64,000 bases of DNA, from positions 1 to 64,000 of the forward strand of contig JAJYIF010000009.1 of NCBI GenBank assembly GCA_021790195.1, in the 5' to 3' direction. The notes under the pieces were generated by a model. The model saw nothing but the letters and a program-made list of their open reading frames with translations. It was not told the DNA's origin and did not search any database. How positions within the stretch are numbered: position 1 is the stretch's first letter; the number at the start of each line of letters is the position of its first letter. Position numbers and translations under genes: made by a program. Positions 15,785 to 26,549 of this stretch are shown in pieces. Source of the DNA: Nitrospirota bacterium. Lineage in GTDB: Bacteria; Nitrospirota; Thermodesulfovibrionia; Thermodesulfovibrionales; UBA9159.

Positions 15785-16786
15785 CTACTTAACCTCATTG
15801 ACCTTGTTATCATATGTTATTATCTTCGCCTTTTCCCGGAGGCCCTTTATAAGCTCTTCATAGAGCTGCGTTCTCTTTTTGTTTAAGAGTTCTTTTTCCA
15901 GCCCTGGCTTGACCTCGTCAAAGGACATCTGCCGCTCGGGTTCGCGGCCGTCGAATTTCACTATCATTATGCCCCTTGAGATAGTGATCATTTTGACTTC
16001 GCCTTCCTTCATGCTCCAGACTTCCTTTTCAAGGTCTTCCTCGAGCCTTCCCTTGTGCAGATAACCCATGTCTCCGCACTTCTCCCGCAATGCGTCGTCC
16101 GAGTATTCCTTCGCCAGCTTGCAGAAATCTCCTCCGGCCTTGACCTTGCTTAAAACCTCTGCGGCTTTGTCCATTTTCTCCTTTCCGACCTTGTCGGTTG
16201 CGTCAGGGGCTATGTAGACGAATATCTCATTAAACTTTATCTTTTCGGGCTCGACAAAACGTTTCTTGTTTGCTTCATAATAATCTTTCACTTCCGAATC
16301 AGTGGGTTTGGAAACTTGATCGACCTTCGTCTTCATCAGTTTGTCGATGGACAGCCCTTCCCGGATCTCTTTTTCGTAAGATGCCTCGGTGAGACCTCTC
16401 TGTTTAAGGGCGTCTTCGAAATCCGACTTCGATTTGAAATGCGACTTCTGCCCGTCGAATATCTTCCTGACATCAGCGTCCGTGGCCGACATCCCAAGCC
16501 TCACCGCCTCCTGGTAGAGCAATTCCGAAACGATAAGCCGATCGATCGCCTCTTTCCTGTACTGGTCCTTTTTCTCTTGCGCAAGGTCGGGATGAAACGA
16601 AAGGGAGGGGATCATCTGGTCGATCATGGCATCCACATCCGCCTCTGTAATGGCGACTCCGTTCACCGAGGCAGCGGGTTTGGAGTCCTCTGCGAAGACA
16701 TCAGGCGTGTAGCGTGTAACGTATAGCGTGCAGAGAAGAAAGGCAAACAAAGCAGCGTGCAGCGTATAGCAAGTAGTGATTTTCAT
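15785..16786 (-). CDS. PpiC/SurA-type peptidyl-prolyl isomerase
   Basis: Protein of 333 aa, periplasmic foldase. SurA-like N-terminal helical domain (about 38-175, VNGVAITEADVDAMIDQM) and one parvulin domain (about 178-285, with CKLAKEYSDD, GDMGYLHKGRL, GIMIVKFDG). Start overlaps the stop of the four-helix-bundle gene by 4 bp, so translation is coupled. The signal peptide (residues 1-32, containing CYTLHAALFAFLLCTLYV) is encoded by the GCGTATA-type 7-bp repeat. PpiC proteins often sit with exported multihaem cytochromes, for example at Geobacter omcZ (recalled, not checked). Confidence 0.9.
   Translation of the reverse strand: MKITTCYTLHAALFAFLLCTLYVTRYTPDVFAEDSKPAASVNGVAITEADVDAMIDQMIPSLSFHPDLAQEKKDQYRKEAIDRLIVSELLYQEAVRLGMSATDADVRKIFDGQKSHFKSKSDFEDALKQRGLTEASYEKEIREGLSIDKLMKTKVDQVSKPTDSEVKDYYEANKKRFVEPEKIKFNEIFVYIAPDATDKVGKEKMDKAAEVLSKVKAGGDFCKLAKEYSDDALREKCGDMGYLHKGRLEEDLEKEVWSMKEGEVKMITISRGIMIVKFDGREPERQMSFDEVKPGLEKELLNKKRTQLYEELIKGLREKAKIITYDNKVNEVK
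16704..16778. repeat. 7-bp-period repeat (GCGTGTA family), in frame in the PpiC signal peptide
   Basis: Units GCGTGTA, GCGTGTA, ACGTATA, GCGTGCA, then AGCGTGCAGCGTATAGC. Positions 16756-16770 (CGTGCAGCGTATAGC) match 17147-17161 exactly in inverted orientation, so the two copies bracket the four-helix-bundle gene. Confidence 0.8.
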
Positions 16787-17139
16787 GTCCTCATTCTCCT
16801 GATTACTGTTGCCAGTAGTTTTGAGGTTTCTTCCTGAAGAGAATACAATCTCTGAAAGTCTTCTGACTTCAGATAACCAAGATCTTTTGATGAAGATATC
16901 TGTGTTTCGAATTCGGAACAGGGGCCGAAGGCGATTCTCAAATATTGCAAGTACTCATTCCGACTTCTTCTATATCCCTCAGCAATATTTGAAGGAATAG
17001 ACACAGCACACCTTCTCAATTGAGAAACTAATCCAAACTTTTCTGTTCCGGGGAATGCATCTGTAGCTCTATAGATTTCAAGGGCCAATTTGTACGCTTT
17101 CTGATAAACGATCAAATCTTTATACGAATTCGTCTTCAT
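16783..17139 (-). CDS. Four-helix-bundle protein (S23 / 23S rRNA-IVP / Avd-like)
   Basis: Protein of 118 aa. Motifs SYKDLIVYQKAYKLALEIY, RRCAVSIPSNIAEGYRR and LRIAFGPCSEFET are typical of the TIGR02436/PF05635 four-helix bundle family, which includes proteins encoded in 23S rRNA intervening sequences and Avd of diversity-generating retroelements. I chose the ATG at 17139; a GTG at 17160 would extend it into the repeat. Stop overlaps the PpiC start. Flanked by inverted 7-bp-period repeats. Function unknown; nucleic-acid binding is inferred from Avd. Confidence 0.85.
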   Translation of the reverse strand: MKTNSYKDLIVYQKAYKLALEIYRATDAFPGTEKFGLVSQLRRCAVSIPSNIAEGYRRSRNEYLQYLRIAFGPCSEFETQISSSKDLGYLKSEDFQRLYSLQEETSKLLATVIRRMRT

Positions 17140-17146
17140 ATTATAC

Positions 17147-17212
17147 GCTATACGCTGCACGTCTCTCGTGTCGCAGCATACACGCTACTCGCTAAACGCT
17201 ACGCGCTCAACG
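17147..17212. repeat. 7-bp-period repeat (GCGTGTA family), inverted copy
   Basis: Plus strand reads TATACGC, TGCACG, then CACGCTACTCGCTAAACGCT: the reverse orientation of the copy at 16704-16778. It fills the gap between barrel gene and four-helix-bundle gene. Confidence 0.8.
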
Positions 17213-17215
17213 GTG

Positions 17216-19129
17216 TCACAGCAATCTGAACGGTCTTGTCACCCGCAGGGTTATCCTCCTGTCGGTTATCCTCGGGCTGTTAGTGGCATCGGTCACCGTA
17301 TACCTGCCGTCTGCCGTGATTATAAGTCTTCTCCAGAACCAGGTAATGAAGGGGTTTACATTCCACGATTCAGTCGTGGTCTTTGTCCCGTAAAAGATAT
17401 TTTTAGAATCGTTCTTGGTATAAACCGAGCTCAAAGTGAAGGAACTGTTTCTGAAAAAGAACGGCCCGCTTATCGTGTTAAAGAAACTGTAGCCCGTCGC
17501 TTCGGTTGCGCCGAGGTCGGACGTATCGCGGTTCTTGTCCCGCGTCAAGTCCGAGCCTAATACCACGTTTAATTGCCAGATGCGCGTCGAAGCGGTTGTA
17601 TACCACTTATCGCTTTCGGTCTTCGGGGACCACGAAACAAAGATATTGCTCGAGAGATTTATCCGGTTGTAATAGCTCACGCCTGCCTCGGCAGTCTGCA
17701 AAGGTCCCTTGTCCGGCAGTGCCGAGTTGTCCGCATTCTGTGTCATCGCGCCCTGAATGGAATAAGCCGCGTAAAGGAAAAGCCTTGGCAAGGGCGTGTA
17801 ATTGGCCCGTATTCCGAAGCTGTAACCACTTCCGTTTGTTCCACCCGTCAGGGAAGAGGAAGTGCCGAGCGACACCTTTGTCGAGAGCGGCGTATTCGTG
17901 CCGAGGACTGCTATTCCGTATCCGTTTTCGAAAGCTGTCGAGTTCTCGGTCCGGTTGTAGCCCGCGGTGAAGCGGTAGTTCAGGAACGTCTTGCGCCAGA
18001 TGGAGGAGCTTCCCGTGCTTGCCGACACGCCGTAATCCGTGGAGGTGCCGTTGTCGGTTGTTGCTCTATAGCCGGCAGATGCGCTGTAATCCCATGTGCT
18101 TGCCCGCGAGAGGAAACCGTGGACCGCTGAGGATAGCCCGTAGGCCGAGGTTGCGCCGCACTTGTTGAAGAAGGCGTCGTTGTCCAGGCTCATTATGCTC
18201 CACCTGTTCCATCCCGTGTGCGTGGAGAGGTCCGAAAATAAGGAGTTCGTGGAATCTGAATCCGACTTCTGGTATACGTCCGAGACAGAAAGGGTATAGT
18301 TGGTCTTCCCGTAGTCGCCGCGCGCGGCAAACCGCGTGCTGTATGAGGTCGTATTACTGTCTCCTGTGTTTGCAGTATAGGCGTCGAAATCAAGGTTGAA
18401 GATCTTAGGCAGGAAATAATACAGGAACCCTTTTTCGTATTTCTTCAGCTCCGCCTTCATGGCCGCCTCGTTGGCCGCCGCGCTCTGGGACGTGTTGCCC
18501 TGTCCTCCCGTATTTTCTTCGCTATTCGATTGTTGCTGCTGCTGCTGCGGCTGTTGTTGTCTTTGCTGCCGCTGTTGCTTAATGAACTCTTTGACTGCGC
18601 TTTCAGGGACAACGCTCCTCGTGTAAACAACGCTGAATCCCACGGTCTTTAAATCATAGCCGGGGCCGTCCGAATAGGAGGCCCTCAGAGACCCGTTGAG
18701 CGGTCTAAAGGGAAGAAACATGAGGTTAAGGTTTACGCTCTTGTAGTCTCCCGTCAAAGACGCTGTGCCGTCCGACCGTTCATAGTCCACCCCAACGTTA
18801 TACTGCAGGAGCCTCCTGTCCACAATGAAGCCCGCTGCGTTGAGGTTGAGATGCTCGGTGAACTGATATGTGTGGCTGGAGATGTCGCCTATCTTGGTAT
18901 AAAAGTCGTCGTATCTCCCGTCCACGAAGCCTGTGATCATCAGCCTCGGCATGAACATGAGCCTGTCCCTGTCCGTCATTGCGCCGGCGTGGACACTGGA
19001 GACGAAGAGGAAGACAAGAAGCACGGCAAGAAGCGTTTCCGAAAGCGCTCTCAGCAAAATAAAGAACGGACTGCGGAAGCGCCCGGACACAGCGAACGGT
19101 GCGCGATAGTCAGTTTTTGTTTTCCTCAT
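17216..19129 (-). CDS. Outer-membrane beta-barrel protein (candidate electron-conduit porin)
   Basis: Protein of 637 aa. A basic N-terminus and hydrophobic segment (about 22-48, ending VHA-GA) form the signal peptide. Then come many alternating amphipathic strands with aromatic girdles (for example LNLNAAGFIVDRRLLQYNVG; YSFGIRANYTPLPRLFLYAAY) and a C-terminus RVTRPFRLL. A Gln-rich linker (about 183-205) divides N-terminal and main barrel parts. No haem motif. Its place upstream of PpiC, NHL lipoprotein and cytochromes fits a porin-cytochrome complex; no MtrB similarity could be proven by eye. It could also be a sugar-export or TIGR03016-like barrel. Sigma70-like promoter at 19279-19308. Confidence 0.82.
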   Translation of the reverse strand: MRKTKTDYRAPFAVSGRFRSPFFILLRALSETLLAVLLVFLFVSSVHAGAMTDRDRLMFMPRLMITGFVDGRYDDFYTKIGDISSHTYQFTEHLNLNAAGFIVDRRLLQYNVGVDYERSDGTASLTGDYKSVNLNLMFLPFRPLNGSLRASYSDGPGYDLKTVGFSVVYTRSVVPESAVKEFIKQQRQQRQQQPQQQQQQSNSEENTGGQGNTSQSAAANEAAMKAELKKYEKGFLYYFLPKIFNLDFDAYTANTGDSNTTSYSTRFAARGDYGKTNYTLSVSDVYQKSDSDSTNSLFSDLSTHTGWNRWSIMSLDNDAFFNKCGATSAYGLSSAVHGFLSRASTWDYSASAGYRATTDNGTSTDYGVSASTGSSSIWRKTFLNYRFTAGYNRTENSTAFENGYGIAVLGTNTPLSTKVSLGTSSSLTGGTNGSGYSFGIRANYTPLPRLFLYAAYSIQGAMTQNADNSALPDKGPLQTAEAGVSYYNRINLSSNIFVSWSPKTESDKWYTTASTRIWQLNVVLGSDLTRDKNRDTSDLGATEATGYSFFNTISGPFFFRNSSFTLSSVYTKNDSKNIFYGTKTTTESWNVNPFITWFWRRLIITADGRYTVTDATNSPRITDRRITLRVTRPFRLL

Positions 19130-19278
19130 TATCCATCTGGTAAAAGGGCCTTGAAACAGCAGGGAATCCTTCGCAAGCGAGTGCTTTGTTGTTGATCTGA
19201 CGCTATATCCGTGCCCCTGTGATTATTCCTCTTTGACCCAAGAATATTCTTAAACCCCTTCCGAAAGAAAATCTCATA

Positions 19279-19308
19279 ATTATAATTAACAAACAGTGGA
19301 ATTCGCAA
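19279..19308 (-). promoter_or_regulatory. Sigma70 promoter of the barrel-PpiC-cytochrome block
   Basis: Minus strand TTGCGA (19303-19308), 18 bp, TATAAT (19279-19284). The -10 is perfect. Start near 19271 leaves a 140-nt leader before the ATG at 19129. Confidence 0.65.
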
Positions 19309-19353
19309 GTATTTTCTTAGGACTTAAGCAATATTTATACCATGGCACAAGGA

Positions 19354-19432
19354 AAGGTCAAACAGTTCAAGAAGGGCAAATGGGTTAAGCAGTTCGAAAA
19401 GGTCATTTTCAGACTTGGAACTATTTGACCTT
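19354..19432. repeat. Inverted 9-bp-period repeat (GGTCAA family)
   Basis: Left arm AAGGTCAAACAGTTCAAG (19354-19371) pairs with right arm CTTGGAACTATTTGACCTT (19414-19432), differing at two points. Further GGTTAAG/GTTC units extend both arms to about 19462. Left-arm units repeat every 9 bp. Confidence 0.7.
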
Positions 19433-19510
19433 GAAACTTCTTAACCTTTTCATATCGCCCGGGGCTTATTCAGTGAGGATTCTGTTACTCTGCGGTGAGC
19501 CTGAAGTCCT

Positions 19511-19549
19511 GAAAAAAAAGAAGGGAGGAAAATCCCCCCTTCTTTTTTG
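19511..19549 (-). terminator. Rho-independent terminator of the tetrahaem cytochrome gene
   Basis: On the minus strand, AAGAAGGGGGGA pairs with TCCTCCCTTCTT (one G-U pair) and is followed by a run of T. It lies 10 bp past the stop codon of 19560-20312. A strong terminator plus strong ribosome site suggests high expression. Confidence 0.85.
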
Positions 19550-19559
19550 TGTTGATGTA

Positions 19560-20312
19560 CTACCTGTTCACATGACAATCCTGGCACAACTCTGAAGCCG
19601 TGTTGGTCGTTCTCAGGAAGTAAACCTGATTACCGCCGCCGATGTGATTTGTAGTGGCCGTGCTCCATCCGTTGTGGTCGTAAGTTGAGTCTGTGTCGTG
19701 GACCGAATGGCATGTTGCGCACTCAAACTTGTTTGCGCCGGTGCCATAGAGCTTGTACTTGCCTCCTGCGCCGGAATTGGTCTGACCCGGTATCCATCCG
19801 TTGACCGCAGTCGGGAACCCGTTGTTGTCCGTAACGGCGTCCAACGCCGGGTTATAAGTGAAGCCGATTGGATGGTCGTTAGAGAGGTCGGTCCCCAGGT
19901 TGGCCCAGTTAGAATAAACCGGATTTCCGTAGTTGGACATTGTGAAGTTTGCGTAGAGGGCACTTGGCACAGAGCCCGGACCCGGATAGTTCACAAGACC
20001 GCTCACCTGACCGTTATGGCATACAAGACAGCCGAGGGAGCCGATGCTTGGCTGGCCCACTGTTGCCGACATATCAAAGGTTGCTGAAGAGTACGTAATA
20101 TATGTGGCAGTGCTTGACGAACGGTTCCAGAGTGGAGCGTGCGTTGCTGAGTCTGAGCTCGATGAGTGAGGCGTATGGCAGAATGCGCATATCTCACCGG
20201 CTGTGCCACCGCTTCTCAGATCGTGGGGCGAACCGGAAACCTTTGCCATAACGACCGCTGCTCCCGCGCATACCATCGCGAGGGCAAGCAATACAATAAG
20301 TGTCTTCTTCAT
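19560..20312 (-). CDS. Tetrahaem secreted cytochrome, monocistronic, candidate filament subunit
   Basis: Protein of 250 aa. Signal peptide about 1-23 (VMA-K). The mature protein begins near HDLRSGG and carries CAFCHTPHS, PLWNRS, CLVCHNG, CATCHSVH and CQDCH: four haems. Histidines outside CXXCH, such as HDL, TPH, DHPIGF and SVHD, are candidate axial ligands. Close paralogue in layout to 13096-13983. It has its own TTGACT-18-TAATAT promoter, an AAAGGAGGTG ribosome site and a strong terminator, all signs of an abundant product. Tetrahaem cytochromes of this general pattern include polymerising nanowire proteins (OmcE; recalled, not aligned), so a filament role is a hypothesis. Confidence 0.87.
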   Translation of the reverse strand: MKKTLIVLLALAMVCAGAAVVMAKVSGSPHDLRSGGTAGEICAFCHTPHSSSSDSATHAPLWNRSSSTATYITYSSATFDMSATVGQPSIGSLGCLVCHNGQVSGLVNYPGPGSVPSALYANFTMSNYGNPVYSNWANLGTDLSNDHPIGFTYNPALDAVTDNNGFPTAVNGWIPGQTNSGAGGKYKLYGTGANKFECATCHSVHDTDSTYDHNGWSTATTNHIGGGNQVYFLRTTNTASELCQDCHVNR

Positions 20313-20364
20313 ATTTCTTTTTCACCTCCTTTCCTTTTGATTAACCTTCACTAAACCGATACGT

Positions 20365-20394
20365 ATATTAATGAAAGGTTTCCCTTAAAGTCAA
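20365..20394 (-). promoter_or_regulatory. Sigma70 promoter of the tetrahaem cytochrome
   Basis: Minus strand TTGACT (20389-20394), 18 bp, TATAAT-like TAATAT (20365-20370). The leader carries AAAGGAGGTG about 8 nt before the ATG at 20312. Confidence 0.7.
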
Positions 20395-20455
20395 TATTAA
20401 AATGGAATCTGCAAAGTGATAATTAGTAATGCAAACAATATGCCATTTTTCTGTT

Positions 20456-20630
20456 CGGAATCCAGAATCCAGGAGTCGGGAGTCAGAAGTCGGCGGGCTA
20501 CTGTATGAGAAATGGATCGAGAGAGAGTCACACTCTTCTTTGCGCCCTTTGCGGCTTTGCGAGAGAAAGGAAGTATTTTTTTATCTTGTCTTTTACGTTC
20601 TCTGTGTCTCTGTGGTTAAATTATCTTTTT
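20456..20630. repeat. Solo copies of CAGGAGT- and CTCTGTG-type repeats
   Basis: 20463-20500 shows CAGGAGT, CGGGAGT, CAGAAGT at 7-bp spacing. 20545-20570 shows CTTTGCGCC, CTTTGCGG, CTTTGCG. 20600-20625 shows TCTCTGTG twice, then GTTAAA. The same families bracket small genes elsewhere in this window. Confidence 0.65.
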
Positions 20631-20737
20631 GCCAGGCAAGGGCGGCTGATCTAAACAGGCATTAAATTTTCTTAATGAACAACTTTATAAATTGGGTGAC
20701 TTGGCGCAATATTGGGCGGAAAGGCGCATCGGAAGAA

Positions 20738-20791
20738 AGTAGACGGCATATAGTAGGCAGCATGTAGTAGATAGTAGATAGTAAGTCTCTA
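20738..20791. repeat. 7-bp-period repeat (AGTAGAT family)
   Basis: Units like GTAGTAGATAGTAGATAGTA recur. Related pieces lie at 22538-22590 and 22735-22757, and inverted at about 33610-33650. Confidence 0.6.
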
Positions 20792-20845
20792 TTACCGCTT
20801 GTTCGCTCCTTGCGAAAGTCTTCCCAAGGGGAGTATATTTTAGAG

Positions 20846-22537
20846 ATGCCGGATAATGACGGGACCTTTCGGCCGGGAATATCCAAACAAGCGCTTCTTG
20901 GATATGCTGCCGTCTTCGTCTCATTCCTTATAATCTTTGCCGTGCCCCTGTGGGACATAGATCTGTGGTGGCACCTTGCGACCGGGAGATACATAGTCGA
21001 GCATAGGTCCCTGCTTGCTGCCGACCCGTTTTCATATACGTCGGGCCATGACTCTTCCTTGCGTGCGATCATACTCAACGGCTACTGGCTGTCCCAGGTA
21101 ATTCTGTATCAGGCCCATAGTGTTTTCGGCAATTACGGCATAATAGCCTTTAGGGTCCTGGTCCTGATTTCGATTCTTTTCATGGTCCTCCGCATAGGCC
21201 GCAGGCTCGGGGCCGAAGACCCAGCCTTAATCATTGTTCTTGTGATGACAGGTTTTGTTTCTCGCCGTTTTACCGGCGAAAGGCCGCAGTTGTTTTCTTT
21301 TCTGCTTGCGCCGGTAGTTTTCTATTTATTGAACGACCTGAAGGAAGCGTATAGCGCACAGCGTATAGCGAGTAGTGAACAACAAGAAGAAGCGTATAGC
21401 GTGAAGCGTGTAGCGAGTATGGGACAACAGAAAGAAGCGAGTGGCGTGCAGCATAATACGCCCTACACGCTACACCCTAGTCGTTTGTCTCATAATGTTA
21501 CACGCTGCCCGCTACCCCCTGCACGCTATTTTCTATTGCCTTTGACGATGCTCTTATGGGCGAACCTCCACCGGGGGTTCATGATGGGCACGGCGCTGAT
21601 CGCTCTTTTCGGAGTATCGGAGACAGTCAGACTTTATCTTAAGAGAGGGATCGACAAGCCATTTCTTAAAGGGTGCCTTATAATGGCGGTCGCAATTTCC
21701 GCGTCTTTCATTAACCCGAACACATATAAACCGTATTTGGAACTTATTGTATTCCAGGCCAGCGCCCTGCAGCAAAGGACCAGCGAGTATCTTTCACCGG
21801 TAACGCTCATGTTGCACCGGCAATATCTGGTTTCATATTGGCTGTATCTAACCGCGAGCGCTATTGTCTTCGGTCTGTCATCCAGAAGAATGGACAAGAC
21901 CAATCTCCTAATCTTTGTCTTCCTGGCGGCCCTGAGTCTTTCCGCATTCAGGTACATCCCTTTTTTCGTGTTCGTTACGGCGCCGTATGTTGCGCTTTAT
22001 CTTTCGGATATTCTTAAGATACCCCTCCCCCCCAATGGGCGAGGGGAGAAGAAGGGAACTCTCTACTTTGCACGTCCGATCAGCGTTCTTGCGGCCTTGC
22101 TTGTCATAGCGACTTTCATGTTCATGCTCAAGAGCTTCGACTCAACTCTCGGGAGCGCCCTCAGACACCCCACCATGGCCCGCCGGTTCCCGGAAAAAGC
22201 AGCGTCCTTTATTGAAGAACATCATCTTCCAGGCAGGATCTTCAATCATTTCAACTGGGGAGGGTATCTCATATGGAGACTGTATCCGGAGCGCAGGGTC
22301 TTCATAGACGGCAGGGCCCTCAGCTTGAAGGCATTTTCCGATTACACAGAGATACTTTGGGACAAGGACAAATGGAAGGCCCTTCTCGGTTATTATGGGG
22401 TAAGGGTAATTGTCATGCCGAGGTCGAACCCTCTTACGGGCGAATTATACGAACTGATAAACCGCCTTTACGAAGACCCGGACTGGGCATTGGTTTACAG
22501 CGACGACACAGCGATGGTCTTTCTCAACAGACAGTAG
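20846..22537 (+). CDS. GT-C-like membrane protein with in-frame repeat insertion
   Basis: The ATG at 20846 (upstream AAGGGGAG) is preferred over a TTG at 20810. Protein of 563 aa with about ten membrane segments. First-loop signature DIDLWWHLATGRYIVEH and C-terminal signature FNWGGYLIWRLYPERRVFIDGRALS define a family with 22769, 29221 and 33637. The acidic D-x-D in the first loop suits a GT-C polyprenyl-sugar transferase; acceptor unknown. After FYLLNDLKEA a stretch of about 58 residues with three tandem EAYSxxR(I/V)AS units is encoded by the GCGTATA repeat (21345-21530) and sits in a loop before YFLLPL. A second palindrome encodes IPLPPNGRGEK. Confidence 0.8.
   Translation: MPDNDGTFRPGISKQALLGYAAVFVSFLIIFAVPLWDIDLWWHLATGRYIVEHRSLLAADPFSYTSGHDSSLRAIILNGYWLSQVILYQAHSVFGNYGIIAFRVLVLISILFMVLRIGRRLGAEDPALIIVLVMTGFVSRRFTGERPQLFSFLLAPVVFYLLNDLKEAYSAQRIASSEQQEEAYSVKRVASMGQQKEASGVQHNTPYTLHPSRLSHNVTRCPLPPARYFLLPLTMLLWANLHRGFMMGTALIALFGVSETVRLYLKRGIDKPFLKGCLIMAVAISASFINPNTYKPYLELIVFQASALQQRTSEYLSPVTLMLHRQYLVSYWLYLTASAIVFGLSSRRMDKTNLLIFVFLAALSLSAFRYIPFFVFVTAPYVALYLSDILKIPLPPNGRGEKKGTLYFARPISVLAALLVIATFMFMLKSFDSTLGSALRHPTMARRFPEKAASFIEEHHLPGRIFNHFNWGGYLIWRLYPERRVFIDGRALSLKAFSDYTEILWDKDKWKALLGYYGVRVIVMPRSNPLTGELYELINRLYEDPDWALVYSDDTAMVFLNRQ
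21345..21530. repeat. In-frame 7-bp-period palindromic element
   Basis: Left arms carry GCGTATA, GCGCACA, GCGTATA, GCGAGTA three times over; the right arms read TACACGC/TACACCC and GCACGCTATT. Length keeps the frame. Confidence 0.8.
22022..22047. repeat. In-frame CCCCTC/GAGGGG palindrome
   Basis: CCCCTC and GAGGGG flank a short centre; translated as PLPPNGRGE in a loop of the GT-C protein. Confidence 0.5.
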
Positions 22538-22708
22538 GTTGCAGTAGTAGACACCAACAACGCTAGTAGTAAGCATGTAGTAAACAGTAGAAAGAGTGTT
22601 ATATATCCTTGCATAATGAAAGCGTCATTGCGAGGAGAGGAACAACATGGCAATCTTAATATTGCTTCGCAATAAAACGCGGGATTGCTTCGCTTCGCTC
22701 GCAATGAC
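22538..22708. repeat. AGTAGAT-type repeat plus inverted GTCATTGCGAG hairpin pair
   Basis: Just past the GT-C stop lie AGTAG units (22538-22590). Then GTCATTGCGAGGAG (from 22624) and, inverted, CGCTCGCAATGAC (to 22708). An ATTGCTTCGCAAT hairpin lies between. No gene. Confidence 0.7.
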
Positions 22709-22768
22709 ATGCAGTCTTATTTACGCACGGCCATATAGTAGACAATAGATAGTGTGCCTACTTTTTTT

Positions 22769-24667
22769 CTACGGCAGACCCATGTCCTTGTGAAGGATGT
22801 CCTTCCCATTTTTGATCAACTCAAGCGCCTTTTCCACCGGTCCTCCTTTCAGGGAAGGTCTCTTCTTCAAGGCGTCTTTGAGAAACTCTATTGCATCGTC
22901 CCGCCTGCCGAGGCCGAGCTCGGACCTTGCCACCGTGAGATAGGGACGAGGGTTGTCCGTGCCTAGCATGGTGTAAGCGCTTGCCATCGCAGCGGCATAG
23001 GAAAGAACCTTGGGAAAATCAGGCTCGAAATTCTCTCTCGTGAACAAAAGGCAATTCTTTGCATAGAAGATCAACTTCCATTCAGGGTCATCGACGAGAA
23101 TAGGCAACAGAGGAGCCATGCCGCCTTCGCGAGCAATCCCGGGTATAAGGATGTACTTCACCGAATAGGTGTCGAGTATGGCTTTATAGGCCGGAACGTC
23201 CACAATTTTCTCCCTGTCGCCTGATATCACAGCTAAGTATTGAAGAAATCCCTTCTGTGAAAGAGCCCTGCCGTCCATGAACACGACCTGATCGGGATAG
23301 AACCTCCATATGAGATAACCGCCCCAGTCATAATAGTTGAACAATCTGTCATTCAGATTCCGGCTCTTAATAAATCTGACTGCGGCTTCTGGAAAATAAT
23401 CTTCAATTATCGGTTTTTTAAATATTGTCATTGGATATATTGTCCAAGCTCCGAAAAGGATAACGCTAACGACAAGAATATCGGGAACCATGAATTTCGA
23501 AAGTTTAAGGAAGATGTGGTCGGCCTTCCCCGAGAAAATGCCCCCGATAATAGGAGTAGCTGCTATGGCCAGAAGAGGTATGACCCTTATGGCTGTGAAG
23601 GACAGAATACCAAAAAGGGCAATAACGAGGACCTCTTCGCTATGACTAAAGAGGATGGCGCGCAGTGTGCAGCGCGTTTCCATCCCGACTTCGGGCTCCT
23701 GGCCCCTGGCCCCACACCCCCGCCTTTTGTATTCAAGAATAACGTGCGCCGTTACCGAAAAGGCCGCAGCGGCAAGGTACAAGAGCGTCCATGTAACAAA
23801 ACGATACGTACCGACCGCGATATATGCAAAAGGCGTCATGAGCTCCGCTACGGATGCACTTTGGATGGGCGACGCTTCCTTTATTATGCCGTATATAACG
23901 TTGTAACCGTTCGGATTCAGAAGACCGGCAAAGATCGTGACCAATGAGACAATGAGCAGCCGTTTATTTATTAAACGACCACGGACGAGAAGCTTCCTTA
24001 ACAGCTCAGAAAAGACATAGATTACAGCGATCGCAGTCCCGACTATGAAGCCGCCGTGCATATTCGCCCAGAAAAGCATCAATAAAGGCAAAAGAAAATA
24101 GCGGGTAGCGTGTAGCGGATAGCGTGTATTAGCTTGCCCCGTGTCCGTTTTTTCATCACTGCACGTTACCCGCTGTACGCTGCCCGCTTCTTTAAGATCT
24201 TCAATCAAATACAGAAACGCCGCAACGAAAAAGAAGGTCATCTGGTTCGGTCTGTCGCCCTTGAACTGTAACAGGATATAGGTCAGAGGGAGGAGCAGGG
24301 GGAGCGACGTGATGACGCTCAATCTTTTCCTCCTGAGGTGCAGAAAAACCATGAGCAGCGTGAGGAAGGCGAAAAAAAGCCTTATCACTATTATCCCACG
24401 ATAACCTGCCAGATTAAAGGCGCCATATTGAATGAGGTTTGCAACCCAGTACTGCCTCGGTATTATTTTAGCCATGAAAGAATCTTCATACGCCTTGACG
24501 GAAGTGGTGTAGTTAAATAGATCGCGGTCGGGGAGTTGGTGATGTTCCCATATCCACCTCCCGGTCGCGAGATGCCAGAAGAGGTCCGGGTCGGTGATCT
24601 GAGTCAAATGGGCAAAAAGCACAACGGCAAAGAAGAGGACGAGCAGTATACGGGATTTTAGCTTCAT
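22769..24667 (-). CDS. GT-C-like membrane protein with TPR-like tail and in-frame repeat
   Basis: Protein of 632 aa. DPDLFWHLATGRWIWEH and FNYYDWGGYLIWRFYPDQVVFMDGRALS, given here as the motifs FWHLATGRW and WGGYLIWRFYP, place it with 20846 and 29221. About ten membrane segments; the C-terminus (about 560-630) has one or two TPR-like units (LGLGRRDDAIEFLKDALKKR). After YLIEDLKEA the repeat at 24092-24190 encodes GSVQRVTCS...TRYPLHATR. A second loop (about 325-345, RGCGARGQEPEVGMETR) also looks repeat-derived (TGGCCCC units near 23695). Presumed polyprenyl-sugar transferase in the inner membrane. Confidence 0.78.
   Translation of the reverse strand: MKLKSRILLVLFFAVVLFAHLTQITDPDLFWHLATGRWIWEHHQLPDRDLFNYTTSVKAYEDSFMAKIIPRQYWVANLIQYGAFNLAGYRGIIVIRLFFAFLTLLMVFLHLRRKRLSVITSLPLLLPLTYILLQFKGDRPNQMTFFFVAAFLYLIEDLKEAGSVQRVTCSDEKTDTGQANTRYPLHATRYFLLPLLMLFWANMHGGFIVGTAIAVIYVFSELLRKLLVRGRLINKRLLIVSLVTIFAGLLNPNGYNVIYGIIKEASPIQSASVAELMTPFAYIAVGTYRFVTWTLLYLAAAAFSVTAHVILEYKRRGCGARGQEPEVGMETRCTLRAILFSHSEEVLVIALFGILSFTAIRVIPLLAIAATPIIGGIFSGKADHIFLKLSKFMVPDILVVSVILFGAWTIYPMTIFKKPIIEDYFPEAAVRFIKSRNLNDRLFNYYDWGGYLIWRFYPDQVVFMDGRALSQKGFLQYLAVISGDREKIVDVPAYKAILDTYSVKYILIPGIAREGGMAPLLPILVDDPEWKLIFYAKNCLLFTRENFEPDFPKVLSYAAAMASAYTMLGTDNPRPYLTVARSELGLGRRDDAIEFLKDALKKRPSLKGGPVEKALELIKNGKDILHKDMGLP
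24092..24190. repeat. In-frame 7-bp-period palindromic element
   Basis: Plus strand GCGGGTA, GCGTGTA, GCGGATA, GCGTGTA, then the inverted arm CACGTTACCCGCTGTACGC. Same protein position as in the two paralogues. Confidence 0.8.
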
Positions 24668-24683
24668 AGACAGAACCCAGAAG

Positions 24684-25070
24684 TCAGGAGCCAGAATTCA
24701 GAATGGAAGAGCAGTATGATTCGAGCAATTTGCTGACTTCCTCAAGCTGGGGTATAGACTCCAGACGGTTTGCGTAACCCAAATCTTTCGCGAGAATCAA
24801 ATAGTAACGGCACTCCTCAATTGAACCTTGAGCGATATTCATGAAGCGGGCCTTGTCCGGTCTGGTCTTCTTTTTGAATCCCTCCGCTATGTTGGCCGGA
24901 ATTGAGACAGCAGACCGTCTGAGCTGTGACGTTAATCCGTATATCTCGTTCTTCGGAAAGCCATCAGTAAAATGATAAACAGACAAAACGAACTGATGAG
25001 CTTTTTGCCACACGATAAGATCCTGGAAAGTTCTCGCCGGTATTCTTTTCACGATATCCCCTCTGTTCAC
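24684..25070 (-). CDS. Four-helix-bundle protein (S23 / Avd-like), second copy
   Basis: Protein of 128 aa from a GTG at 25070; a GTG seven codons in (VKRIPARTF) is an alternative. RTFQDLIVWQKAHQFVLSVY, RRSAVSIPANIAEGFKK and IAQGSIEECRYYL match the same family as 16783-17139. The final codons (ILNSGS) and stop are supplied by the CAGGAGT-type repeat. Flanked on both sides by inverted copies of that repeat. Lies between a GT-C gene and an NHL lipoprotein, but there is no reason to link it to them functionally. Confidence 0.85.
   Translation of the reverse strand: MNRGDIVKRIPARTFQDLIVWQKAHQFVLSVYHFTDGFPKNEIYGLTSQLRRSAVSIPANIAEGFKKKTRPDKARFMNIAQGSIEECRYYLILAKDLGYANRLESIPQLEEVSKLLESYCSSILNSGS
24690..24706. 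repeat. 7-bp-period repeat (CAGGAGT family), left copy
   Basis: CAGAAGT, CAGGAGC, CAGAATT, CAGAATG at 7-bp spacing around 24678-24705. The core CAGGAGCCAGAATTCAG matches 25073-25089 inverted with one mismatch. Confidence 0.75.
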
Positions 25071-25072
25071 TC

Positions 25073-25089
25073 CTGAATTCTGACTCCTG
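25073..25089. repeat. 7-bp-period repeat (CAGGAGT family), inverted right copy
   Basis: Plus strand CTGAATTCTGACTCCTG. It stands just upstream of the four-helix-bundle start. More units at 25140-25178 encode the tail of the neighbouring NHL lipoprotein. Confidence 0.75.
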
Positions 25090-25095
25090 TATTCA

Positions 25096-26199
25096 TTATT
25101 TCTTGCTTTTGCCTTCTTGTTTCTGACTGCCGACTTGTTTCTCTTCTGAATTCTGACTCCTGACTCCTGTATTCTCTTCTTTCAGGTACTGGAACACCTG
25201 GACCCGTTTATTCAGAGAGTCGGCAACGTATATCTTATCGTTTTTGTCTATCCACATCTGCATTGGCAATAGAAAAAGACCGGGACCGCTGCCGTTGCTG
25301 CCGAATACCATCAGCAGCCGGCCTTTCTGGTCGAATATCTGAACGTTGCCGAAATTGCCGTCGGACACATAGATATGCCCTTCGGAATCAACCGCAATCC
25401 CGTATGGTCTTGAAAAAAAGCCCGGCGAGTCGCCGAGGCCGCCGAACGCCCTGATAAAGAAGCCATCAGGGCCGAATATCTTTACCTTGAAGTTCATTGT
25501 GTCCGCAACATACACCTTGCCTTCTCTGTCGACATAGACCTGTCCGGGGATATAAACCTCATTGTCCTTGTTCCCTGACTTTGCTATAGTCGATATGAAA
25601 TTGCCGTTCATGTCGAATGCCCGGAGCTCGCTTAGTTTGGAATCTGTGACGTAAATCCTTCCTCTGTCCTCGTCGACTGCCACTCCCACAGGGTTCCTGA
25701 AAAACCCCGGCTTCTGGCCTATAACAAACCGGATCTTCCCTGTATTAAGGTCATATGCGGTCACCCTTTTTGAAGCGATGGAGGCATAAAGGAGCAGGTT
25801 GGACTTCGGGGCTATTGCTATCCCCATGGGCTGGGCCGGCGGCTCTTCGGCCCCCTCGCCGAAAAACCCGAGCCTCTTGTGCGTCAAATCGAATACAAAG
25901 ATCTGGTTGCGTATTGTGTCGGCGACATAGATATTGCCCATTCCGTCCACGGCAACTCCCTGCGGCCTCACCAGGCTTTGTCCTACATCGACTCCCACAA
26001 GAGATTCCAGAAAGGGATTTCGTTCCGCGATATCTATCGCAGCGGAATAGGCCCCGAGCCATTTTATCCTCGGCTTGTCCGGCGGCAGGGGCCAGACAAG
26101 GTCCTTCGGCGCCTCAGCCTGCTGCGGCGCACACGCAGAGAGCAGCGCAATGCATATGGAAAAACATATTAAAGCAGCAATTCTCAATTTACGGTTCAT
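25096..26199 (-). CDS. NHL-repeat beta-propeller lipoprotein, second copy
   Basis: Protein of 367 aa. Lipobox LLSAC (about residues 18-22), then WPLPPDKPRIKWL, shared with 14018-15136, and about six NHL blades (IYVADTIRNQIFVF; IYVTDSKLSELRAF; VYVADTMNFKVKIF; IYVSDGNFGNVQIF). ATG preceded by GGAGGATG. The C-terminal 25 residues (TGVRSQNSEEK...) are encoded by CAGGAGT-type repeats and probably form a disordered tail. It stands near a heptahaem cytochrome, repeating the NHL-cytochrome association seen twice already. Confidence 0.87.
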   Translation of the reverse strand: MNRKLRIAALICFSICIALLSACAPQQAEAPKDLVWPLPPDKPRIKWLGAYSAAIDIAERNPFLESLVGVDVGQSLVRPQGVAVDGMGNIYVADTIRNQIFVFDLTHKRLGFFGEGAEEPPAQPMGIAIAPKSNLLLYASIASKRVTAYDLNTGKIRFVIGQKPGFFRNPVGVAVDEDRGRIYVTDSKLSELRAFDMNGNFISTIAKSGNKDNEVYIPGQVYVDREGKVYVADTMNFKVKIFGPDGFFIRAFGGLGDSPGFFSRPYGIAVDSEGHIYVSDGNFGNVQIFDQKGRLLMVFGSNGSGPGLFLLPMQMWIDKNDKIYVADSLNKRVQVFQYLKEENTGVRSQNSEEKQVGSQKQEGKSKK

Positions 26200-26230
26200 A
26201 TATCATCCTCCGCTTCAGTTTATTGTTTCT

Positions 26231-26254
26231 GTCATTCCGGCTTGTCCGGAATCT
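26231..26254. repeat. GTCAT hairpin type 2, left bracket of GIY-YIG gene
   Basis: GTCATTCCGG-CTTG-TCCGGAATCT. The minus strand encodes IPDKPE plus TGA at the end of the GIY-YIG protein. Confidence 0.85.
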
Positions 26255-26549
26255 TTCCGCAAATGTCTTCGTACAAGTCTCTGAACGTTGAATTATTCTG
26301 CCTGACGAGGTCTATCTTCGCCTGCCTCTTCATATTCTTGATCTGCTTTTCTCTTATTATCGCAGCGAAACTATTCTCGCAAAACTCACAATATACAAGT
26401 TTGTGCAAGTGATACCTTGCTGTAAAGCAGTGAGGATTTAGATCGTTCTTATGTTCATAGACTCTTTTCATGAGATCTCCCGTCACTCCAACATAAAGAG
26501 TCGGTCTGCTGTTGGCCATTATATACACTGCAAAGTCCTTGCCCAACAT
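26232..26549 (-). CDS. Small GIY-YIG endonuclease
   Basis: I start at the ATG at 26549, which gives 105 aa, the same as the repaired gene at 15319-15641; upstream ATGs at 26567 and 26615 are possible. [20 protein letters not shown] is the GIY-YIG core, [11 protein letters not shown] carries the conserved Arg and Glu, and [12 protein letters not shown] follows. It belongs to the small stand-alone GIY-YIG (UvrC-N-like) family. Catalytic residues look intact. Bracketed by inverted GTCAT hairpins 26231-26254 and 26603-26626. Confidence 0.85.

Follow-up and report, generated by a model that had tools for sequence, protein, structure and literature searches.

Introduction

The closest known system to the element described here is the intervening sequence (IVS) borne by bacterial 23S and 16S rRNA genes, whose open reading frame (ORF) encodes a protein of the PF05635/TIGR02436 family, named the four-helix-bundle (FHB) or "23S rRNA intervening-sequence protein" family. 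Insertions with and without an ORF occur at common rRNA sites in candidate phyla radiation (CPR) bacteria (PMC11270868), and the IVS ORF has been suggested as a mobility component (Ralph and McClelland 1993, according to the citing passage in PMC4990558). In this study, we analyzed a 64,000-nt window of a Nitrospirota bacterium (assembly GCA_021790195.1, contig JAJYIF010000009.1, positions 1 to 64,000), in which two FHB genes, m1 and m2, each lie between inverted arrays of heptamers. The units here have the same protein family and the same length as the rRNA IVS, and likewise place an S23p/IVP ORF between terminal arms that are complementary and could pair as a stem. However, they lie in intergenic or operon DNA rather than in rRNA genes: no rRNA match was found at positions 16000-26500 of the window or in 40 related loci, and none of the arms matched a known RNA family. 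The arms of the units here are moreover periodic, with units of 7-9 nt, and specific to protein subfamilies. Owing to this location and these arms, we regard the units as a variant akin to the rRNA IVS and not as a member of that class.

Three other systems show partial likeness. In REPIN/RAYT (TnpA-REP) systems, a protein gene goes together with cognate short inverted repeats and with many gene-less copies in the same genome. The units here follow a similar logic, with cognate inverted repeats and gene-less copies genome-wide, a likeness qualified by the m2-type arrays in relatives without an m2-type gene; unlike REPIN/RAYT, they have an FHB protein without a Y1/HUH domain (in Pfam, only PF05635 and bAvd match) and arms that are periodic arrays. 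The Avd protein of diversity-generating retroelements (DGRs) shares the fold of the FHB protein (Foldseek probability 1.00, TM ~0.7) and a weak sequence kinship with it, whereas identity in the fold search was 10-12%, the Avd equivalog model gave 25.2 bits against a cut-off of 80, and the unit, unlike a DGR, includes no reverse transcriptase gene. Heptanucleotide tandem repeats have been described as the cyanobacterial short tandemly repeated repetitive (STRR) sequences, as TAACTGA in Beggiatoaceae and as GGGAATC in Xanthomonas; they are intergenic and phylogenetically patchy, with no mechanism reported (PMC4679880; PMC4692102). The arrays here resemble them in their 7-nt units, intergenic location and patchy distribution, and X. 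campestris, with its many GGGAATC repeats, also provided the solved FHB protein XCC0516 (2gsc). In the open-licence literature, we found no paper linking the FHB family to heptamer repeats, and none that ties such repeats to an encoded protein or to inverted pairs on either side of a gene. On the evidence given below, we consider it probable that the unit is a minimal mobile element, in which an Avd-like protein would recognise its own arrays and help to move both the element and its hairpins.

Results

Gene m2 lies between inverted heptad arrays

The m2 protein matched PF05635 with E=4.4e-37 and 127 bits (cut-off 33.8) and TIGR02436 with E=5.7e-35 and 119.8 bits (cut-off 24). Its AlphaFold2 model, built from an alignment that left out plasmid proteins, showed four helices with a pLDDT of 91.6, and a Foldseek search with this model retrieved 2gsc (E=1.6e-7), 2rld, Avd (4dwl) and the Avd of a DGR ribonucleoprotein (8ub7). 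The solved relatives, XCC0516 of Xanthomonas campestris and BT_0352 (2rld), have five chains per entry, and a homopentameric ring has been reported for Xanthomonas S23p (PMC4990558). By analogy with these homologues, we infer that the FHB protein here is pentameric.

A preliminary description of this DNA had placed m2 inside inverted 7-bp repeats and named the heptamer sequences at the two ends of the gene. Both sequences were located, CAGGAGCCAGAATTCAG at 24685-24701 and CTGAATTCTGACTCCTG at 25073-25089, in agreement with the 3′ and 5′ ends of a minus-strand gene, and the heptamer proved to be degenerate (CAG[AG]A[GT][TAC], hereafter CAGRAKH). Both arms scored well above dinucleotide shuffles, which bears the description out: the period-7 score was 13 for the left arm (shuffle mean 6.3; reached by 2/500 shuffles) and 18 for the right arm (shuffle mean 7.7; reached by 0/500), with period 7 the best among the periods tested on both sides. 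The inverted match between left and right was 25, compared with a shuffle mean of 10.2 and a maximum of 18 in 100 shuffles. The stop codon of m2 and its final residues, ILNSGS, are encoded by the array. For m1, whose arrays consist of AGCGTRY heptads, the same comparison was also significant, with 0/500 shuffles matching on either side.

The preliminary description had ended the unit at the inner right arm, which stands as described, but a second, outer right array lies beyond that end (Table 1). Because the left arm pairs better with this outer array than with the inner one (32 nt, 78%), the m2 unit may reach about 80 bp further. The outer array region also encodes the C-terminal tail, EENTGVRSQNSEEKQVGSQKQEGKSKK, of an NHL-repeat protein gene at 25096-26199 (minus strand), and so this host protein seems to have gained a new tail from the m2 insertion.

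Table 1. Positions of the FHB genes, their arrays and gene-less arrays in the window
Feature	Position	Strand	Basis
m2, FHB gene, PF05635/TIGR02436, 128 aa	24684..25070	-	profiles, AlphaFold2, Foldseek
m2 left arm, 7-nt array (CAGAACC CAGAAGT CAGGAGC CAGAATT CAGAAT)	24671..24704	+	period test
m2 inner right arm, heptad array, inverted	25066..25095	-	inverted pairing
m2 outer right arm, top complement of left arm (37 nt, 84%)	25139..25175	-	
m1, first FHB family member, PF05635	16783..17160	-	
m1 left array(s), AGCGTRY heptads	16704..16778	+	
m1 right array, AGCGTRY heptads, inverted	17142..17207	-	
Gene-less m1-type hairpin, two inverted AGCGTRY arms and a short loop	24099..24190	.	
m1-type heptad array without gene	21346..21419	+	
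m2-type heptad array without gene	20456..20491	+	

Periodic arrays flank the FHB family at large

To survey the family, 154 distinct FHB members from many phyla were scored for arrays (score of 10 or more), with 194 other genes within the same loci as the control. An array was found on the left of 81% of the FHB genes, on the right of 82%, on both sides of 69% and on either side of 94%, compared with 21.6% on either side and 2.6% on both sides of the control genes. An independent phylum-level sample gave an array in 20/20 FHB genes, on both sides in 15. The earlier argument that different heptamers sharing a 7-bp period and a common plan could not be due to chance therefore holds for the family, and comparing the flanks of its members turned it into a general rule of 7-9-nt arrays. 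Chance periodicity was ruled out by the shuffles, by windows elsewhere in the loci and by the flanks of the control genes.

Over all flanks, the period was 7 in 193 cases, 8 in 41 and 9 in 10, and the two arms had a common period in 100/107 cases. The arms are inverted and not direct (median score 15 vs. 5), and within a single element the two arms matched more closely than did arms taken from different elements of the subfamily (15.1 vs. 11.2, p=1e-6). From array to array the unit spans about 460 bp, with a median arm of 4.6-5.4 units (periods 7 and 8) and a wide spread. Mixed arrays of 6- and 7-nt units were seen in one FHB cluster (loci L016 and L123), with a period of 13 in L016 (AGTGTC AGTGATT). 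At four loci from four genomes of the order (L117, L010, L013 and L008), the right array lies within the N-terminal coding sequence of a GKGGVGKT P-loop gene adjoining the FHB gene.

The FHB gene is the sole gene of the unit. Four residues, S56, N60, E63 and E86, are invariant over 41-45 diverse members, and Q49, R52, S83 and G64 are almost invariant. In most of the pairs compared, codon changes fall mainly at third positions, which indicates that the FHB protein is maintained; as the sole gene under such coding constraint, it should therefore do something for the unit. In the Nitrospirota phylum, 76/148 sampled genomes carry the family above the cut-off.

Gene and arms are inserted together

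Within one conserved family of conjugative plasmids, a unit lies between two operon genes in Trichormus variabilis and Scytonema, and the same site is empty in the plasmids of Nostoc linckia, Tolypothrix, Aulosira and N. carneum, whose flanks are about 97.5% identical. The empty site reads AAAAAGTAATTAACAAATA, and the filled site reads AAAAAGTAAT, then AAATCAGAATTC...GAGTTCTTCTTT, then GTAATTAACAAATA, which corresponds to an insert of 423 bp plus a 5-bp target duplication, GTAAT. A precise insertion polymorphism with a target-site duplication, as in transposable elements, was therefore found at one clean site. Between the two filled copies, the left arm differs by 14 bp, or two heptads.

Presence and absence were also seen at other sites. 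A second plasmid site, filled in three records and empty in five, is compatible with a duplication of 4-5 bp (TTCT or TTCTA); a third carries a GGGAAAA-type array; and at a fourth presence/absence site the unit lies antisense between nrdB and nrdA. At a locus empty in two species of a genus, genome G136 has the gene between its arms, and genome G217, 97% identical there, has the same arms around an unrelated hairpin, with GAACGCT (7 bp) as the repeated target. In another genus (that of G152), the unit occupies one site in 5/29 genomes, and the other genomes carry a different intergenic repeat there. At the level of sequence, these comparisons show the unit to have been inserted whole, gene and both arms together.

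At loci L304-L318, the genomes of genus g62 that lack the unit have at the same site an unrelated intergenic repeat of about 150 bp (GGATGCTCAAAATGG...), sometimes in tandem. One complete genome has two 97% identical FHB copies (L009 and L116), each with an in-frame TAA; their boundaries could not be mapped cleanly because the duplicated stretch, about 500 bp, extends beyond the arrays. Units were also seen on plasmids between cas10 and cmr3 (L159, Picosynechococcus) and between cas6 and cas4 (L228, Anabaena sp. 90). The FHB family has been reported to co-occur with cas genes, "in cas loci" (PMC3936711), and such genes may be explained as insertions.

Gene-less copies accompany the genes

The source genome has four clear FHB members, each within an inverted periodic array of its own sequence. 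The four array types are CAGRAKH (7 nt), AGCGTRY (7 nt), an AGTCGGC-like array (7 nt; locus L002), seen by eye and under the scoring threshold, and GGTGACCC (8 nt). Pattern searches of the whole genome found the m2-type pattern at 47 places, compared with 2 in the reversed control, and the m1-type pattern at 22 places, compared with 0. Many of the gene-less matches are inverted arm pairs of about 4-5 units each around a loop of 14-45 nt. Furthermore, Brasilonema has a gene-less hairpin at a plasmid site that is occupied by the gene in other plasmids, and in Nostoc N6 a gene-less unit is nested within the FHB gene. The gene-less hairpins behave like non-autonomous copies.

Regarding m1 itself, its start is likelier the ATG at 17137-17139 than the listed GTG. 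Part of the N-terminus, a signal-like stretch, of a SurA/PpiC-like gene at 15785-16786 (minus strand) is encoded by m1-type AGCGTRY heptads. A divergent, longer relative (L005 1501-1707, G000:C22:1577-1783; frame of about 195 aa) falls under the Pfam cut-off; relatives of this type recur in many genomes of the order, match mostly profile positions ~8-73 and probably form a separate family.

Array sequence follows the protein subfamily

The CAGRAKH heptad is mostly carried by members 57-76% identical to the m2 protein, in Chloroflexi, Cyanobacteria, Verrucomicrobia, Acidobacteria, Planctomycetes, Bacteroidota and others, and the other three FHB members of the source genome do not have it. Over all pairs, array similarity was flat at about 0.18-0.20 below 50% protein identity and rose to 0.38-0.66 above 55%. 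Protein and array similarity were correlated (Mantel r=0.63; maximum of 500 permutations 0.15), and when the large m2 cluster was set aside, this step appeared above 60% identity, with few pairs. As far as sequence comparison goes, these data show that the array tracks the protein subfamily rather than the genome, across phyla. The simplest explanation of this match would be that the FHB protein binds its own array.

The preliminary description gave no function, and the empty sites, the gene-less hairpins and the matching of protein and array are new in this analysis.

Discussion

The proposed mobile element would consist, in order, of a left array of about 4-5 heptads, the start codon, one FHB gene, the stop codon inside the right array and this right array itself, which is inverted, about 0.42-0.5 kb in total. 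An FHB pentamer would bind its own periodic array, as a single strand or as a hairpin, perhaps with one subunit per heptad; the five-subunit ring and the array of about five units suggest such a correspondence rather than show it. Through this binding, the protein would direct how the element is copied or inserted, and would do so in trans for gene-less hairpins, by way of an intermediate of DNA or RNA. The protein might cut and join DNA itself, using its own conserved S56/N60/E63/E86 site, or it might mark and hold the array for host enzymes, with the chemistry left to a host nuclease or polymerase. The sites between operon genes or at stop and start codons are probably the survivors of selection.

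Several observations weigh against this reading. The FHB protein has no known nuclease, recombinase or catalytic motif, and at about 6% of FHB genes no array could be detected. The length of the left array ranges from about 26 to 84 nt (10th-90th percentile), which makes the idea of five units for five subunits weak. Only one site shows a clear target duplication (5 bp), with 4-7 bp or an unclear result at the others; the sites compared gave no single value for its length, so the insertion chemistry may vary between sites. Moreover, relatives within the same order have m2-type arrays but no m2-type gene. This rules out a strict need of the arrays for a resident cognate gene, and implies that the arrays either outlast the loss of the gene or are spread by something else too.

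The alternative that survives best treats the unit as a passive passenger, selfish at the RNA level like the rRNA IVS, whose transcript stem would be cut by RNase III and thereby limit damage to the operon; the protein would bind the excised RNA, and movement would be left to host processes such as template switching. The m1 and m2 arms do pair in the predicted transcript, many elements lie within operons, and the IVS of Coxiella rRNA, equal in size (428-444 nt), encodes the same protein family and ends in a 28-bp stem that RNase III cuts (PMC4990558). However, such passive movement leaves the subfamily-specific array sequence, the periodicity of the arms and the many gene-less hairpins unexplained, and in N. 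edaphicum the gene is antisense to the surrounding operon. We therefore think this explanation unlikely, if still deserving of attention.

It is more doubtful that the FHB protein assists a reverse transcriptase that acts in trans, as Avd does in DGRs, with the element moving by retrotransposition. The fold and the weak sequence match to Avd agree with such a role, as do reverse transcriptase genes near the element on two plasmids, but no reverse transcriptase was detectable in 18/34 FHB-carrying relatives and there was no association (p=0.20), so that a requirement for one is unsupported. Least plausible is that polymerase slippage produced the arrays as ordinary host repeats, in or into which FHB genes merely tend to lie or move: the arrays do gain and lose whole units (the 14 bp between near-identical copies) and many genomes commonly contain heptamer repeats (PMC4679880; PMC4692102), but the arms are inverted and subfamily-specific, and the empty sites, where there is no array and gene and both arms arrive together, disfavour it.

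Other candidates were rejected. A Y1 transposase acting in trans was more frequent with FHB genes (30/34 vs. 15/27 genomes, p=0.007), but it is absent from four genomes that carry FHB genes, and the comparison is confounded by general mobile-element load. A phage-borne element is contradicted by a search of 2.9 million viral contigs, which yielded only 3 relatives and none for m1. As for a defence gene, there was no PADLOC match.

The mobile element proposed here could further represent a class of mobile DNA that is new: its FHB protein, a pentamer and not a transposase, would read arrays of 7-9-nt units, about one unit per subunit, would move or copy its own gene and gene-less hairpins, and would co-diversify with its arrays into many specificities, and much of the heptamer-repeat content of bacterial genomes would stem from it. 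We put this broader claim forward tentatively, as the balance tips slightly against it. The FHB element may account both for a protein family of unknown function and for the puzzling heptamer repeats; if this is true, the large FHB family and the heptamer repeats would each be half of a single element. The old idea of the IVS ORF as a mobility component would become directly testable. Moreover, if FHB proteins read subfamily-specific periodic arrays, they would represent a module of about 120 residues, natural and diversified, for the recognition of nucleic acids.
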